A stretch of 64,000 nt of DNA from Pseudomonadota bacterium (GTDB lineage: Bacteria > Chloroflexota > UBA5177 > JAJPKF01), in the NCBI GenBank assembly GCA_021323865.1, contig JAJPKF010000019.1:62001-126000 (forward strand). The letters are read 5' to 3'. This document shows, in pieces, positions 22,598 to 60,295 of the stretch. The position numbers and the translations under genes were made by a program. The notes under the pieces are model-generated. The model made no database searches and was not told where the DNA came from. It saw nothing but the letters and a program-made list of their open reading frames with translations. Positions within the stretch are counted from its first letter, which is position 1. Each line of letters starts with the position of its first letter.

Positions 22598-22674
22598 GGG
22601 CGATTAGCTCAGCTGGTTAGAGCGTACGGTTCACATCCGTAAGGTCACTGGTTCGAGTCCAGTATCGCCCACCA
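22598..22674 (+). tRNA. tRNA-Val (anticodon CAC), CCA encoded
   Basis: Cloverleaf readable: gggcgat/atcgccc acceptor, tacgg-TTCACAT-ccgta anticodon arm (CAC at 22632-22634), GGTTCGAGTCC T-arm, terminal ACCA. Confidence 0.95.
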
Positions 22675-28435: not shown

Positions 28436-28585
28436 CGCGGTGCCAAGCTCGGATCATGCAGAATGGAGCAGCGGAGCGCAAGGGTAAGCCGGTGAGAGGC
28501 CGGCACAGTCCTCGCTACTGTATGACAACCCCTCCTGGGACGTCGAGTCAGAAAACCTGCTCCGCCGAGCCGACGGCACCTTCGA
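28436..28585 (+). ncRNA. Cobalamin (B12) riboswitch
   Basis: aagggtaagccGGTGagaggccggcacagtcctcgCTACTGTatgacaa core and B12-box-like AGTCAGAAAACCTGC at 28546-28560; GGTGCC (28440-28445) can pair with GGCACC (28575-28580) as P1. Confidence 0.85.
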
Positions 28586-53639: not shown

Positions 53640-53984
53640 CTAGTCGGGAATGGTCCGAAAAAAGCAGGTTTCTGCTCCCGTGTGGCACATGGCAGTCGCA
53701 CCGGTGGCCGGAGAAACCACCGCCAGGAGAGCATCGCCGTCGCAATCCAACCGGAGGTCTCGGACAAGCAGATAGTTGCCCGAGTTACGGCCCTTCAGCC
53801 AGATCTCGCTCCGGCTGCGGCTCCACAAGTGCAACCGGCCGGTGGTACGGGTCAACTGGAGGGCCTCCTCATTCGCATAGCCAACCATGAGCACGTAGCG
53901 CGTTTCGGAGTCTTGAACGACAACCGGGACCAGCCCGGCGCCCTTGGCAAAGTCGATGGCCTTTGGCGTGAGCGGATCACTCAT
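53640..53984 (-). CDS. hisI: Phosphoribosyl-AMP cyclohydrolase
   Basis: [60 protein letters not shown]. Confidence 0.96.
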
Positions 53985-54781
53985 GGAACGTCGTGATTCC
54001 CGACTGAGAGGAGCGCCGCGGGCGGCTCGAGGCGGACAGGGATGCCGGCCGAGGCGAGATGCTCCTTGACTTCAAGGATGGTCAGCATTCCGTAATGGAA
54101 GAGTGATGCGGCGAGAACGGCATCCGCCTGGCCATCGAGAATGGCGGCTGCAAAGTCCTCCGGTGACCCCGCTCCGCCTGATGCGATGACAGGCACGGGA
54201 ACACGCTCAGAGATTGCCCTCAGTAGCTCGAGATCGTAGCCGCGCCGACCGCCGTCGGCATCCATGCTGGTCAAGAGAATCTCTCCCGCGCCTCTGGACG
54301 CGCCTTCCACAGCCCAGGTGATGGCATCGAGGCCCGTCGCCCTCCGGCCTCCCTCGACAAACACCTCCCAGCCTTCGACTCTTCGCCGTGCGTCAATGGC
54401 CAGAACCACGCACTGGCTTCCGAATGACTCGGCCGCCTCATTCAGCAGCTCTGGGCGCTTGACCGCCGCAGAGTTCACACTCACTTTGTCGGCTCCCGCG
54501 TCAAGAGCCGCCCGGGCTTCCAGGACGGTTCGAATGCCGCCTCCCACGGTGAGTGGAATGAAGATCTGCCGAGCGGTCCGCGAAACCACATCCAACACGG
54601 TCGTGCGGCCCTCAGGCGCCGCGCTGATGTCGAGGAACACGATCTCGTCGGCGCCTTCGTCGTAGTATCGGCTTGCCAGCTCAACGGGATCTCCCGCTGG
54701 TTGGAGCGAGTCGAATTGGACGCCCTTCACGACCTGCGAGCCGGCGACATCGAGGCACGGGATGACGCGTTTAGCCAGCAC
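53981..54781 (-). CDS. hisF: Imidazole glycerol phosphate synthase cyclase subunit
   Basis: [47 protein letters not shown] start overlapping hisA stop chosen. Confidence 0.95.
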
Positions 54782-55481
54782 CTGCCGCCACCGCTTGTGC
54801 GAGATCCAGACTTCCTTCATATAGCGCCCGCCCGATGATCGCCGCCTCGGCTCCCACCTGCTTAAGAGCGTGAATGTGCTCCAGTGTGCTTACGCCACCC
54901 GAAGCAATCACGGGGCGGTCGGCAGCCTCGATGACGGTGCGAAGCAGCTCGGCGTTGGGTGCGGTGAGGGTTCCGTCTCTACTGACGTCCGTCACCAGAA
55001 ATCGCCCGACCCCGGAGTTGATCAGCCGCTTTGCCAGCTCAGAGGGCGTCTGGGAGGAGGTTCGAGCCCAACCTCTTGTTGCCACGTTCCCCGCCTTGAC
55101 GTCGATCGCGACCACGATGTGTTGTCCGTGTAGAGCCACCGCGCGGCGAAGCATCGTCTCATCTTCGATCGCCTGTGTGCCGACAACCACGCGTTCCACG
55201 CCTGCTTCGACGAGGAACTGTACCGTCTCCAAGGTGCGCACGCCCCCGCCCGCCTGAATCCGGCATCCCTTGGACGCGAGGCGACCAACGAGGGCCAGAT
55301 GTTTCGGTGTGCCGTCTCGTGCGCCATCCAGGTCGACGACATGAATGAGACTGGCGCCGGCTTCCATCCAGCGCGCGGCCCACTCTTCAGGATCTCCGTA
55401 ATCGATGGGCGCTTCGAAATTCCCTTGAATCAGCCGAACAGCGCGGCCCCCGAAGAGATCAATAGAGGGAATGATGAGCAT
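54771..55481 (-). CDS. hisA: ProFAR isomerase
   Basis: [67 protein letters not shown]. Confidence 0.95.
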
Positions 55482-56077
55482 CAGACGAGGGCCAGAAAGT
55501 TCGAAAGCAGCCGGAGGCCCTGAGCCGCGCTCTTCTCTGGATGAAATTGCGTGGCCCAGAACCGGCCCTGTCTGAGTGCGCTGGGAAATTGGATGCCGTA
55601 GTCTGTCCAGCCACAGGCGGCGTCCTCCTCCACGGAACAATAATAGGAGTGGACGAAGTAGAAGTAGGTGCCGCTGGGGATGCCGGCGAAGAGCGGGTCG
55701 TCGCGATGTTCCACGCGGTTCCAGCCGATCTGGGGAATCTTCAGCCGAGCCGTCCCCGCCTCGAACCGGCGGCATTCCCCGCGGACGAGACCGAGGCACG
55801 GAGTTGGCCCCTCCTGACTACGATCGAGGGCCAGCTGCATGCCAAGGCAAATGCCGAGAGCCGGAACACCGCTGCTGATTGCCGTTCGAAGCGCCTGTCC
55901 AATGCCATTCGATTCCAGAGTGGACATGGCGGCAGGAGCGGCGCCCTGGCCTGGGAAAACGAGGACAGGGGCGCGAGATACCAGCTCCGGATCAGTCGTG
56001 ATTTCGGCTTGGCAGCCAACCTGAAGGAAAGCACTCCGGACACTGGCGAGGTTGCCGTGCCCGGCATCCACGATCAC
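55481..56077 (-). CDS. hisH: Imidazole glycerol phosphate synthase amidotransferase subunit (start approximate)
   Basis: VVIVDAGHGNLASVRSAFLQVG, VFPGQGA, GVPALGICLGMQLAL, FWATQFHPEKSAAQGLRLL. Confidence 0.94.
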   Translation of the reverse strand: MIVDAGHGNLASVRSAFLQVGCQAEITTDPELVSRAPVLVFPGQGAAPAAMSTLESNGIGQALRTAISSGVPALGICLGMQLALDRSQEGPTPCLGLVRGECRRFEAGTARLKIPQIGWNRVEHRDDPLFAGIPSGTYFYFVHSYYCSVEEDAACGWTDYGIQFPSALRQGRFWATQFHPEKSAAQGLRLLSNFLALV

Positions 56078-56093
56078 GACTCGCCGTCGGCGC

Positions 56094-56696
56094 TCAATCA
56101 AGCCGGCCCTTGGTGGAGGGGATGGTGTCACGGCCGGTTTCAGCTGCCGCCATGCGCAGGGCTCGGGCCGCGGACTTGAAGACCGCTTCGATGATGTGAT
56201 GGCTGTTGCGACCCCGAATAAGATCGATATGCAAATTGAAGCGCCCATGATTGGCAAATGCGGCGAAGAAGTCCTCGCACAGCTCGGTGTCGAAGTCCCC
56301 CAGGCGCTTTGCCCGCACCGGGGCCTGGAACCAACAGTAGGGCCGTCCCGAGAGATCGATGACCGTTCGCGCGAGGGCCTCATCCATGGGCACGTAGGCC
56401 CAACCATACCGGTTGATCCCCGCCCGTTTTCCCAGGGCTTCGTGGAGAGCTTGGCCCAGCACAATTCCGCAATCTTCGACCGTGTGATGTGGGTCCACCT
56501 CCAGATCGCCCTTTGCTTGCACAGTCAGATCGAACCCGCCATGCGTCGCCAGAAGGGTCAGCATGTGGTCAAAGAAACCGATGCCGGTGGCGATGTGGGC
56601 AACAGCGCCTCCGTCTAGATTCACGGAGACGGAGATATCCGTCTCTCGAGTGGCGCGTGTCACGGTACGGCGGCGGCCGGCCGTCTCGGTCGTCAC
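56094..56696 (-). CDS. hisB: Imidazoleglycerol-phosphate dehydratase
   Basis: GIGFFDHMLTLLATHGGFDL, DPHHTVEDCGIVLGQAL, HIDLIRGRNSHHIIEAVFKSAARALR. Confidence 0.97.
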   Translation of the reverse strand: MTTETAGRRRTVTRATRETDISVSVNLDGGAVAHIATGIGFFDHMLTLLATHGGFDLTVQAKGDLEVDPHHTVEDCGIVLGQALHEALGKRAGINRYGWAYVPMDEALARTVIDLSGRPYCWFQAPVRAKRLGDFDTELCEDFFAAFANHGRFNLHIDLIRGRNSHHIIEAVFKSAARALRMAAAETGRDTIPSTKGRLD

Positions 56697-57796
56697 TGCG
56701 CCGCCGGCTCCAGCCGGCTTTCCGTGAGCTCGATCTCGACCGTACGCAACGCGGAAAGGAGTCGCTCAACTTCCGCATCGGTTCCCACACTGATGCGCAA
56801 AGCCGGCGGCTGGTCGAATCTCCGGACAAGCACGCCTTTCCTCAACAGCGCCTGGTAGACACGGTCGAGGTCGATCCCCTCACGCATTCTGCAGTACACA
56901 AAATTGGCGTCGGTCGGCGAGGGACTCAGGAGCGAGTTCGACTGGAGGCTCAGATGGAGAGTGTGAGCTGTCCGCCGTACCCTTGCCACGGCATCGCCCT
57001 TGGAGTGCCTTAGTGCGGCCAGACCGGCGGCTTGGGCCACAGAACTGACGGTATAGGCCGGCTTGACGCGCCTCATCGCGTCGGCGACCTCTTTCGAGAA
57101 GAGCCCGTAGCCCAACCGGAGACCGGCCAAACCAGCCCACTTGCTGAACGTCCGCACGATCATCAGACGGGGATGGCCTTCCAGCAGGGCACGGGCCGAG
57201 CAATCGGCAAACTCGACGTAGGCTTCGTCAACCAGGATGTGAGGGCCCAGCGCAAGCAGCCGCTCGACGTCGGCCAGCTGCGTCTGATTGCCGGTTGGAT
57301 TGTTGGGGCTGCAGAGAACGATCAGCTTGGTGCGCTTCGTCAGCGCTTCTCGAGCCGACTCCACATCGACACGGAAGGCGTCGTCGCGCGGGACGTGCAC
57401 CACCGAAGCTCGACTCAGGCCGGCGGCCACGGAATAGAAGCCGAAGGTGGGAGGGAAGGAGATGATCTCGTCCCCCGGATCGAGAAAGAGACGAAAAATC
57501 ACGTCGATGATCTCGTCGCCACCGGCGCCAACGACGACCCGTCCCGGCTCGAGGTCGACATATTGCGCGATCGCATCCACAAGCGCCGTTACGCTGTTAT
57601 CTGGATAGCGATGGAATTGCACGTGACGCACCGCTTCGAGCACGTCCGGATGCGGCCCGTAGGGGTTCTCGTTCTGGTTGAGCTTTACCCAATCGTCCAC
57701 CAGGACGCCATAGCGCCCCGCCAGTGTCTCGAGGGGCGTCACGGCTCGATAGGGGGCGACGCGCGACAGGTCAGAGCGAAATGGGGGGCTCCTCAT
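56693..57796 (-). CDS. hisC: Histidinol-phosphate aminotransferase
   Basis: KLNQNENPYGPHPDVLEAV, LCSPNNPTGNQT, VDEAYVEFAD, RTFSKWAGLAGLRLGYG. Confidence 0.95.
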   Translation of the reverse strand: MRSPPFRSDLSRVAPYRAVTPLETLAGRYGVLVDDWVKLNQNENPYGPHPDVLEAVRHVQFHRYPDNSVTALVDAIAQYVDLEPGRVVVGAGGDEIIDVIFRLFLDPGDEIISFPPTFGFYSVAAGLSRASVVHVPRDDAFRVDVESAREALTKRTKLIVLCSPNNPTGNQTQLADVERLLALGPHILVDEAYVEFADCSARALLEGHPRLMIVRTFSKWAGLAGLRLGYGLFSKEVADAMRRVKPAYTVSSVAQAAGLAALRHSKGDAVARVRRTAHTLHLSLQSNSLLSPSPTDANFVYCRMREGIDLDRVYQALLRKGVLVRRFDQPPALRISVGTDAEVERLLSALRTVEIELTESRLEPAAQ

Positions 57797-59097
57797 GGAG
57801 GCAGAGGCGATTGGCGAATCTCGATGGCCCGGGCATGCGCTTCCAAGCCCTCAACGCGAGCCAGCGCCCTTGCGGTCGGCCCAATGGCGGCCAGGCCGCT
57901 CGCGCTGAGCTCCTGAAGCTGCATCGGCCGACCGAAGGCTTCCACAGACAGCGGGGCGAACATGCGGGCAAACCCGCCTGTTGGGAGCACATGATTGGAC
58001 CCGGTGCAGTAGTCGCCGGCTGCATTGGGACTGTAGGGGCCGAGAAATACAGAGCCGGCTGAAGAAAGGTCCGTGACGATTGCATGGGGGTTCCGGATCA
58101 TGATTTCGAGGTGTTCTGGGGCGTACTCGTTCGCGAGTGCGACGGCCTGACTCAGGTCTTCGACCAGTGCGGCGCCGGAACAACCCCGAAGAGATGCCGT
58201 GATCAAGTCCCGATGAGGAAGGTCAAGCAGCTGTCGCTGTATCTCCTGTTCGACCTCCTCGGCAAGCTCACGGTTGGTGGTCACGAGCAGCACCGGTGAG
58301 TCCATGCCGTGTTCGGCGTTGGCCAGCATGTCCGCGGCGACCCAGGCCGCGTTGGCGGTCTCGTCGGCGATGATCAGAAGCTCCGAGGGGCCTGCCGGGA
58401 GGTCGATGGCTACCTCCGGGAACACCTGAAGCTTGGCTGCCGTCACATACGCATTCCCGGGTCCGAATATCTTATCTACCTTGGGAACCGTTTGGGTCCC
58501 ATGGGCAAGCGCGCCGATGGCCTGTGCACCACCGACGCAAAAGATGTCCTGAATGCCTGCTTCCGCCGCAGCGACCAGCGTTGCCGCGGGAACCTTGCCT
58601 CGATCGTCCGGGGGTGTGGCCAAGATCCTCTTCGGACAACCGGAAACCTGCGCGGTGACCGCTAGCATGACGACCGATGATGGGTATCGAGCACGGCCAC
58701 CAGGCACATAGAGCCCCACGGCGGCGATCGGCCTCCAGCTGCGCCATACGGCGACGCCCGGCGCGGTTTCAACCCGGACCTCACGCGGTATCTGCGACTC
58801 GTGAAAGGATCGAACTGCATCGATGCTGCGCCGCACCGCGTCGACGTAATCGCCTTCCACCACGTCATATGCGGCGGCGATATCGCTCGTGGGTACGCGG
58901 ATATGTTCGAGCTCTACTCCGTCGAAGCGCTTGGTCAGGCTGCGGAGTGCCGTATCGCCATGGGCCTGAACGGACTCCAGAATCTCTCGAACCACCCGTT
59001 GCAGCTCGGGATCGAGGTGCAGGCGGTTGGCCCTACCCGGCAGGTCTTCTGCCCGTGGACTGGAATGGATCTTCAACAGGTGTTCGGGCATGGTCAA
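57793..59097 (-). CDS. hisD: Histidinol dehydrogenase
   Basis: YVPGGRARYPSSVVMLAVTAQVSGC, GGAQAIGALAHGTQTVPKVDKIFGPGNAYVTAAK, DLPAGPSELLIIAD, GDYCTGSNHVLPTGG. Confidence 0.97.
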   Translation of the reverse strand: MTMPEHLLKIHSSPRAEDLPGRANRLHLDPELQRVVREILESVQAHGDTALRSLTKRFDGVELEHIRVPTSDIAAAYDVVEGDYVDAVRRSIDAVRSFHESQIPREVRVETAPGVAVWRSWRPIAAVGLYVPGGRARYPSSVVMLAVTAQVSGCPKRILATPPDDRGKVPAATLVAAAEAGIQDIFCVGGAQAIGALAHGTQTVPKVDKIFGPGNAYVTAAKLQVFPEVAIDLPAGPSELLIIADETANAAWVAADMLANAEHGMDSPVLLVTTNRELAEEVEQEIQRQLLDLPHRDLITASLRGCSGAALVEDLSQAVALANEYAPEHLEIMIRNPHAIVTDLSSAGSVFLGPYSPNAAGDYCTGSNHVLPTGGFARMFAPLSVEAFGRPMQLQELSASGLAAIGPTARALARVEGLEAHARAIEIRQSPLPP

Positions 59098-59969
59098 ACG
59101 ATCATCTTTTCGATCGGGGACACCAAGATCTCACTGGCGCCCGCATCGCGCAGCTTCTCGATCACCTCCCAGAAGAATTCCTCCCGGACGGCGGTATGAA
59201 CGGCAACCCAATTCGGGTCGGCAAGCTCCACGATGGTCGGCGACTTCATGCCATGTGCCACCTCTTCGACCTGCCGAAGCGCGGCCTTGGGCACGTTCAT
59301 CATGACGTATTTGTAATCCCGAGCAACAAGGGCGGCCCGCAGGCGCATCAAGAGGCGGTCGATCTTCCGTCGCTTCTCGAGCCGCTCGAGTGCGGCTGGA
59401 TTGGCGATCACCGCAGCCTGAGAGGTCAACACAGTATCGATGGCCCGCAGATCGTTGATGCGGAGGGTGCTCCCCGTCGCCGTCAGCTCCACGATGCCGG
59501 ATGCCACACCGAGAGCGGGCGCCAGCTCCACCGAACCGCTCACAGGAATCAAGCTCACCTCGACCCCGTGGGAGCTGAAGTATCGCCCCGCCGATTGCGG
59601 ATACGATGTAGCAATCTTGGCCCCTCGGAGTTCTTCGACGCGTTGGATTGTGCTGTCCTTTGGTACGGCCACCACCAGACTGCAGTAGCCGAACCGAAGC
59701 GGTAGCAGCTCGCAGACGTCGAAGCCTGATTCGACGACCAAGTTCTGGCCAACGATGCCGAGATCCACCACCCCCTCGGCGACATACTCCGAAATGTCGT
59801 CGTCGCGCACGTACAGGAGCTCGAGCTCAAAATTGCGACACGCGGCGAAGAGCCGCGCTCGATAGGTCTCGAACTCCAAGCCCACAGCACGCAAGAGGTC
59901 GAGCGTCGGCTGCGTCAGCCGTCCATCCTTCTGAATGGCCAATCGAAGATTCTGTCCCGACTGCTGCAC
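59094..59969 (-). CDS. hisG: ATP phosphoribosyltransferase (long form with C-terminal regulatory domain)
   Basis: LRLAIQKDGRLTQPTLDLLRAVGLEF, VDLGIVGQNLVVE, KIATSYPQSAGRYF, GSVELAPALGVASGIVELTATGSTLRINDL; 291 aa length. Confidence 0.94.
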   Translation of the reverse strand: MQQSGQNLRLAIQKDGRLTQPTLDLLRAVGLEFETYRARLFAACRNFELELLYVRDDDISEYVAEGVVDLGIVGQNLVVESGFDVCELLPLRFGYCSLVVAVPKDSTIQRVEELRGAKIATSYPQSAGRYFSSHGVEVSLIPVSGSVELAPALGVASGIVELTATGSTLRINDLRAIDTVLTSQAAVIANPAALERLEKRRKIDRLLMRLRAALVARDYKYVMMNVPKAALRQVEEVAHGMKSPTIVELADPNWVAVHTAVREEFFWEVIEKLRDAGASEILVSPIEKMIV

Positions 59970-60001: not shown

Positions 60002-60046
60002 AAAAAAGCCCTCGCTCCCGGACAATTGCGTCCTCGGAACGAGAGC
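60002..60046 (-). terminator. Intrinsic terminator of the his T-box leader
   Basis: Minus strand GCTCTCGTTCC-GA-GGAC-GCAATT-GTCC-G-GGAGCGAGGGC followed by TTTTTT. Confidence 0.9.
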
Positions 60047-60262
60047 CTAAGACTCCCGCGGTCCCATCCTGTTTCCCGTCAAGACTGACGGACACTCATT
60101 GGCATTCACCGCCATGCGCTGAAAGGGGCGCACCCCCACGGTCAGGTCCGAACCGGAGTGTGATCGCGTGTGGCCATTTGCCAGGCTTCCACCAGTCCTG
60201 ACTCGCTCGAAAGGCCGCGGGATTCCAGAGGGTGGATTCCTCCACCATGCTTTTCTGATGTA
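60002..60262 (-). ncRNA. T-box leader, histidine-specific (predicted), upstream of hisG
   Basis: On the minus strand: GAGCGAGTCAGGACTGGTGGAAGCCTGGC (stem I AG-bulge/distal-like), GATCACAC with CAC specifier at 60160-60162, AACAGGATGGGACCGCG T-box motif (60057-60073 region), then intrinsic terminator. Confidence 0.85.
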
Positions 60263-60266
60263 GCCA

Positions 60267-60295
60267 AGTCTACTTGAGTCAGGAATTCGGGTCAA
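60267..60295 (-). promoter_or_regulatory. Predicted sigma-70 promoter of the his operon
   Basis: Minus strand TTGACC (60290-60295), 17-bp spacer, TAGACT (60267-60272). Confidence 0.6.

Follow-up and report, generated by a model that had tools for sequence, protein, structure and literature searches.

A probable histidine T-box leader of a hisGDCBHAFI operon and its ultrashort relatives in Patescibacteria

The window, a stretch of 64,000 nucleotides, carries on its minus strand an operon of eight histidine biosynthesis genes, preceded by a leader of about 260 bases with the parts of a T-box riboswitch. NCBIfam models recovered all eight genes of the hisGDCBHAFI operon named in a preliminary description of this DNA, and every sequence quoted there was located at its place on the minus strand. 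The features are as follows, in the direction of transcription.

60267..60295, minus: sigma-70-like promoter TTGACC-17-TAGACT (one found, against 0.1 expected in shuffled sequence)
60002..60262, minus: predicted T-box leader RNA (fit to RF00230 and anatomy from sequence)
60231..60246, minus: extra 5' hairpin GGTGGA-GGAA-TCCACC (sequence and predicted fold)
60180..60208, minus: GAGCGAGTCAGGACTGGTGGAAGCCTGGC, within which AGCGA (AG bulge) and the distal stem I hairpin GTCAGG-ACTGGTGGAAG-CCTGGC occupy 60180..60207
60165-60158, minus: GATCACAC (from sequence)
60160..60162, minus: specifier triplet CAC (His) in GAU-CAC-A, register matched by eye
60057..60073, minus: T-box AACAGGATGGGACCGCG, with UGGG at 60066-60063
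60036..60070, minus: antiterminator AGGA-[UGGGACC]-GCGGGAG...CTCTCGTTCC, drawn by hand, -8.4 kcal/mol
60002..60046, minus: intrinsic terminator of 11 + 4 bp followed by T6 (60007-60002), -26.8 kcal/mol
59094..59969, minus: hisG, the first regulated gene (TIGR00070, 3.1e-55)
53640..59097, minus: hisD, hisC, hisB, hisH, hisA, hisF and hisI, in that order after hisG (NCBIfam matches)

The T-box identity proposed in the preliminary description held up, with the UGGN bulge, the antiterminator and an overlapping terminator ending in T6 all in place. Because CTCTCGTTCC is common to the antiterminator and the terminator and is needed by both, the two structures are mutually exclusive. Upstream, the AG bulge and distal hairpin that form the elbow module resemble those of the leuS and trpD leaders of the same genome and of four His T-boxes in another family of the phylum, f18. 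The order of elements (AG bulge and distal loop, specifier, UGGN, antiterminator, terminator) is that of the class I T-box described by RF00230, but the window leader is GC-rich, falls far under the Rfam cut-off, lacks a clear AGUA motif and has a repeat in its specifier loop. A class I (transcriptional) T-box riboswitch is very probably the best explanation of the leader, and its sequence confirms positions 60262-60002 (minus strand) as what would be a transcription-attenuating, tRNA-His-specific T-box leader of hisGDCBHAFI.

Several measures set this signal apart from chance. In a search of 351 bases, RF00230 matched 60256-60032 with 24.1 bits (E 0.0014), below the gathering threshold of 93 bits, so that the leader goes unreported at the gathering cut-off; it is also absent from the nine matches of a whole-genome RF00230 search and was detected only by direct search. 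The preliminary description had named a subthreshold covariance score as evidence against a T-box, and the score is literally subthreshold, but the 93-bit cut-off is not diagnostic in this lineage because the genome's nine other T-boxes, which lie before synthetase and amino acid genes, score 48.8-83.8 bits and also all fall short (0 of 9 above 93). The fold of the leader is better than that of 200 of 200 shuffled sequences (z -3.72). The 14-mer AGGNTGGNACCGCG has a single occurrence in the window, where random sequence of equal G+C would be expected to contain 0.024; by itself it also occurs in coding DNA of other genomes, and the case therefore rests on the combination of elements. As a probe for His T-boxes across 399 genomes of the phylum, AGGNTGGGACCGCG was rejected, most of its matches being coding coincidences.

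The sequence shows a match to histidine at three levels, in the predicted specifier, the discriminator contact and the operon. The host genome encodes a single tRNA-His, with anticodon GUG, which is the sole tRNA with C73 among 46, and UGGG at 60066-60063 is complementary to the C73-CCA end of this tRNA; codon and discriminator thus agree on histidine, as had been claimed from the sequence of the window. The specifier context GAUCACACUCC matches GAACACACCCC of one f18 leader (L120) and GAACACACC of three others (L121, L125 and L133). MAFFT did not place the specifier strand of the window exactly, and the register was fixed by eye, with GAU-CAC-A in the window set against GAA-CAC-A in the four f18 leaders and GAA-CUC-A in the host's own leuS leader. 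Across the host genome, UGGN pairs with the discriminator base of the cognate tRNA in 10 of 10 T-boxes, in nine by Watson-Crick pairing and in that for Trp by wobble (for leuS with tRNA-Leu(GAG) and proS with tRNA-Pro(CGG), both tRNAs have A73). In all 10 the specifier is also consistent with the downstream gene, although specifiers were placed by eye in knowledge of that gene, which makes this agreement partly circular; no such circularity affects the discriminator match.

The complementarity of UGGG to C73 comes with a qualification. According to TBDB, the discriminator base is not used for His, as C73 of tRNA-His can pair with G-1. The UGGG argument of the preliminary description is thus borne out as base complementarity but requires the G-1:C73 pair to open, since C73 may be paired internally. 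UGGG alone is also not His-specific, because another f18 leader, with a GGC-like specifier, carries it too. Among Patescibacterial leaders found without using UGGN, described below, 27 of 27 with a CAC specifier have UGGG. This occurrence of UGGG in the window and in every such Patescibacterial His leader suggests that T-boxes do read C73 despite possible pairing with G-1.

In the proposed mechanism, transcription would start near 60262, and the long stem I of the nascent leader would offer CAC to the GUG anticodon of tRNA-His. If that tRNA were uncharged, its C73-CCA end would pair with the UGGG bulge and stabilize the antiterminator, and polymerase would read through into hisG to hisI. If it were charged, CTCTCGTTCC would go to the stronger terminator and transcription would stop at the T6 run. 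Binding of tRNA, antitermination and a working specifier loop in its altered form are, like every mechanism proposed here for the window, the Patescibacteria and the leuS leader, inferred from sequence.

Stem I is the least typical part of the leader. The AGUA/loop-E motif was not recognizable in the specifier loop of the window, which reads GGAATCCC where other T-boxes have GAGTAG. The 5' strand of this loop contains GGAATCC (GGAAUCC) twice, 14 bases apart, as a tandem repeat whose first copy overlaps the extra 5' hairpin; with a single copy, the strand would measure 7 nt, as in leuS. The canonical stem I was rejected as the most stable fold, its drawing reaching -14.6 kcal/mol against -23.2 kcal/mol with the extra hairpin and -33.5 kcal/mol for the free optimum.

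The atypical specifier loop and its repeat, together with the missing leader in relatives of the same order, could indicate a decaying T-box, in which the terminator and antiterminator are kept, the altered loop no longer binds tRNA-His and the leader serves chiefly as a fixed attenuator. We consider this unlikely, as the leader retains an intact specifier context, distal hairpin, UGGG, antiterminator and terminator. A T-box that reads another codon than CAC, such as UCA (Ser), draws on the loose register that the Rfam alignment leaves around GAU-CACAC; it is highly improbable given that UGGG fits C73, which is confined to tRNA-His among the 46 host tRNAs, that four other His T-boxes have the same register and that the operon is his. 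Control of his operons by leader-peptide attenuation is the Proteobacterial arrangement, and His codons form runs before hisG at two loci of the same phylum (L024 and L026). A leader-peptide attenuator was rejected for the window and has next to no likelihood there: the leader shows no run of His codons, unlike those two loci, and contains T-box elements instead. A class I T-box specific for tRNA-His thus stands as the preferred reading.

The host phylum, we infer, is Chloroflexota. The preliminary description had suggested that the lineage may be unusual. It is unusual for a T-box specific for His, but Chloroflexota T-boxes as such have been published before: the phylum is listed among T-box bearers (PMC3766115), and Dehalococcoides has them at ileS, trpE and a trpB-like gene, with no His T-box mentioned in the accessible portion of that report (PMC2494555). 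Its phylum is the one inferred for the window; compared with what that portion describes, the host genome differs in having ten T-boxes, including those of argG, hisG, proS and leuS. His T-boxes of his operons are described in Firmicutes, Corynebacterium glutamicum and Lactococcus lactis (PMC9413887). They share with the window the tRNA-His-dependent attenuation of histidine biosynthesis predicted here, but they belong to Firmicutes and Actinobacteria, and the window, by its inferred phylum, to neither. The window leader represents an established type of switch in a sparsely described lineage, and with it the T-boxes of this inferred Chloroflexota genome, which serve at least ten operons, include one for His; the relatives of the leader, described below, are the more novel part.

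Control of his genes differs among near relatives, because hisG loci of the same order are without a T-box and L024 and L026 have His-codon runs. The HisG protein of the window groups with HisG of the same order (85/98), and no T-box was seen before hisG at the same-order loci examined. T-boxes preceding hisG were found in one other family of the phylum, f18 (L120, L121, L125 and L133), with a common specifier context and UGGG. At L009, L024 and L026, short reading frames with adjacent His codons lie before hisG, which would suggest leader-peptide attenuation there. Seven further f18 leaders (L119, L122, L124, L131, L132, L134 and L135) combine AGGGTGGGACCGCG with a GGC-like specifier context and are perhaps Gly T-boxes, with UGGG facing U73.

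The nine other T-boxes of the host genome, with downstream genes named from translations and no family search, precede ileS, thrS, valS, pheS, leuS, proS, trpD, a homocitrate-synthase-like gene and argG, for a total of at least ten T-box-controlled operons. In the leuS leader (L008, G000:C30:185645-185917, minus strand), stem I and the antiterminator flank a tRNA-Ala(GGC), which has no second copy among the 46 host tRNAs. Because this tRNA lies before the terminator, it would be made irrespective of leuS transcription. In three genomes of the same order (G001, G002 and G005), tRNA-Ala(GGC) closely precedes a T-box of this kind (L252/L257, L253/L258 and L255), and leuS and an upstream stem I were read in G001 and G002. 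Elsewhere in the window, a cobalamin riboswitch scores above its gathering threshold (28457-28578, plus strand, 38.2 bits), and a tRNA-Val(CAC) lies at 22598-22671 (plus strand).

A HisG search of genome contigs gave Patescibacteria as the closest named relatives of the window's HisG, and four of these loci (L010-L013) have a T-box before hisG in which a 5-bp hairpin with the loop GUCACGA replaces the long stem I. The variant was found at L010-L013, L151, L155, L156, L164 and L169-L209, its stem I being a hairpin of 5 bp whose loop, GU-codon-GA, has 7 nt and mirrors an anticodon loop; the elbow-binding module is absent. The window leader, with its long stem I, is itself outside this variant. 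The pattern GGAGTNNNGATCCNNRAGC had 35 matches in 33 of 385 related genomes and none in a reversed control, with NNN being CAC or CGC only. A set of 32 distinct full leaders was prefiltered for a T-box downstream and for a YRC-type codon; in all 32, the codon agrees with UGGN (CAC with UGGG in 27/27, CGC with UGGC in 4/4 and UGC with UGGA in 1/1). In the covariation analysis, 93.2% of cells were paired and the score was 0.563 against 0.183 in shuffles, a value that 0 of 500 shuffles reached; in slid controls, at most 42% of cells were paired. A script placed the start of a terminator at or near the antiterminator 3' arm in 27 of the 32 leaders, and L010 also has one, which the script missed.

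Genes sampled behind these leaders include hisG, hisS, ornithine carbamoyltransferase and a cysteine-synthase-like enzyme, along with unexpected ones, an aromatic amino acid lyase (L194) and a peptidase (L207); others are unassigned. In 12 of the 27 His leaders, the only tRNA that aragorn finds behind the T-box, in a scan of 700 bases, is a tRNA-His(GUG) (L170, L172-L175, L178, L179, L189, L196, L199, L200 and L205; L012 and L179 are a single locus). Of these 12 genomes, nine carry another tRNA-His at a different place; no second copy was detected in G597, G614 and G556, genomes that are possibly incomplete. In such an arrangement, uncharged tRNA-His would boost transcription of its own gene.

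Taken jointly, these leaders probably form a distinct Patescibacterial variant with an ultrashort stem I, no elbow-binding module and an intrinsic terminator, which would decode His, Arg and Cys and, with tRNA-His as the first gene in 12 of 27 His cases, place a sensor in control of its own ligand. An ultrashort stem I has been tied to translational T-boxes (Sherwood 2015, as cited in the accessible part of PMC7583486). The Patescibacterial leaders resemble that type, as portrayed there, in that stem I is truncated and lacks the elbow-binding module, but differ in having intrinsic terminators and in decoding His, Arg and Cys. If confirmed, they would run counter to the view that a long stem I is required in transcriptional T-boxes, make the elbow module dispensable in that class and provide a sensor connected to the gene that encodes its tRNA. 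Open-access sources yielded no paper that treats T-boxes of Patescibacteria or of the candidate phyla radiation, which is weak evidence of novelty.

The T-box-linked tRNA-His genes at L200 and L205 have an unusual T-arm (GGGAGCGTTACCC and GGGAGCATTACCC) and a D-loop without GG, and these copies may not be normal elongator tRNAs. At two other Patescibacterial loci, L152 and L154, the loops UUUCCCG and AUUCCUA occur before proline-related-looking genes, with the Pro triplet one position later than the codon in the His/Arg type.
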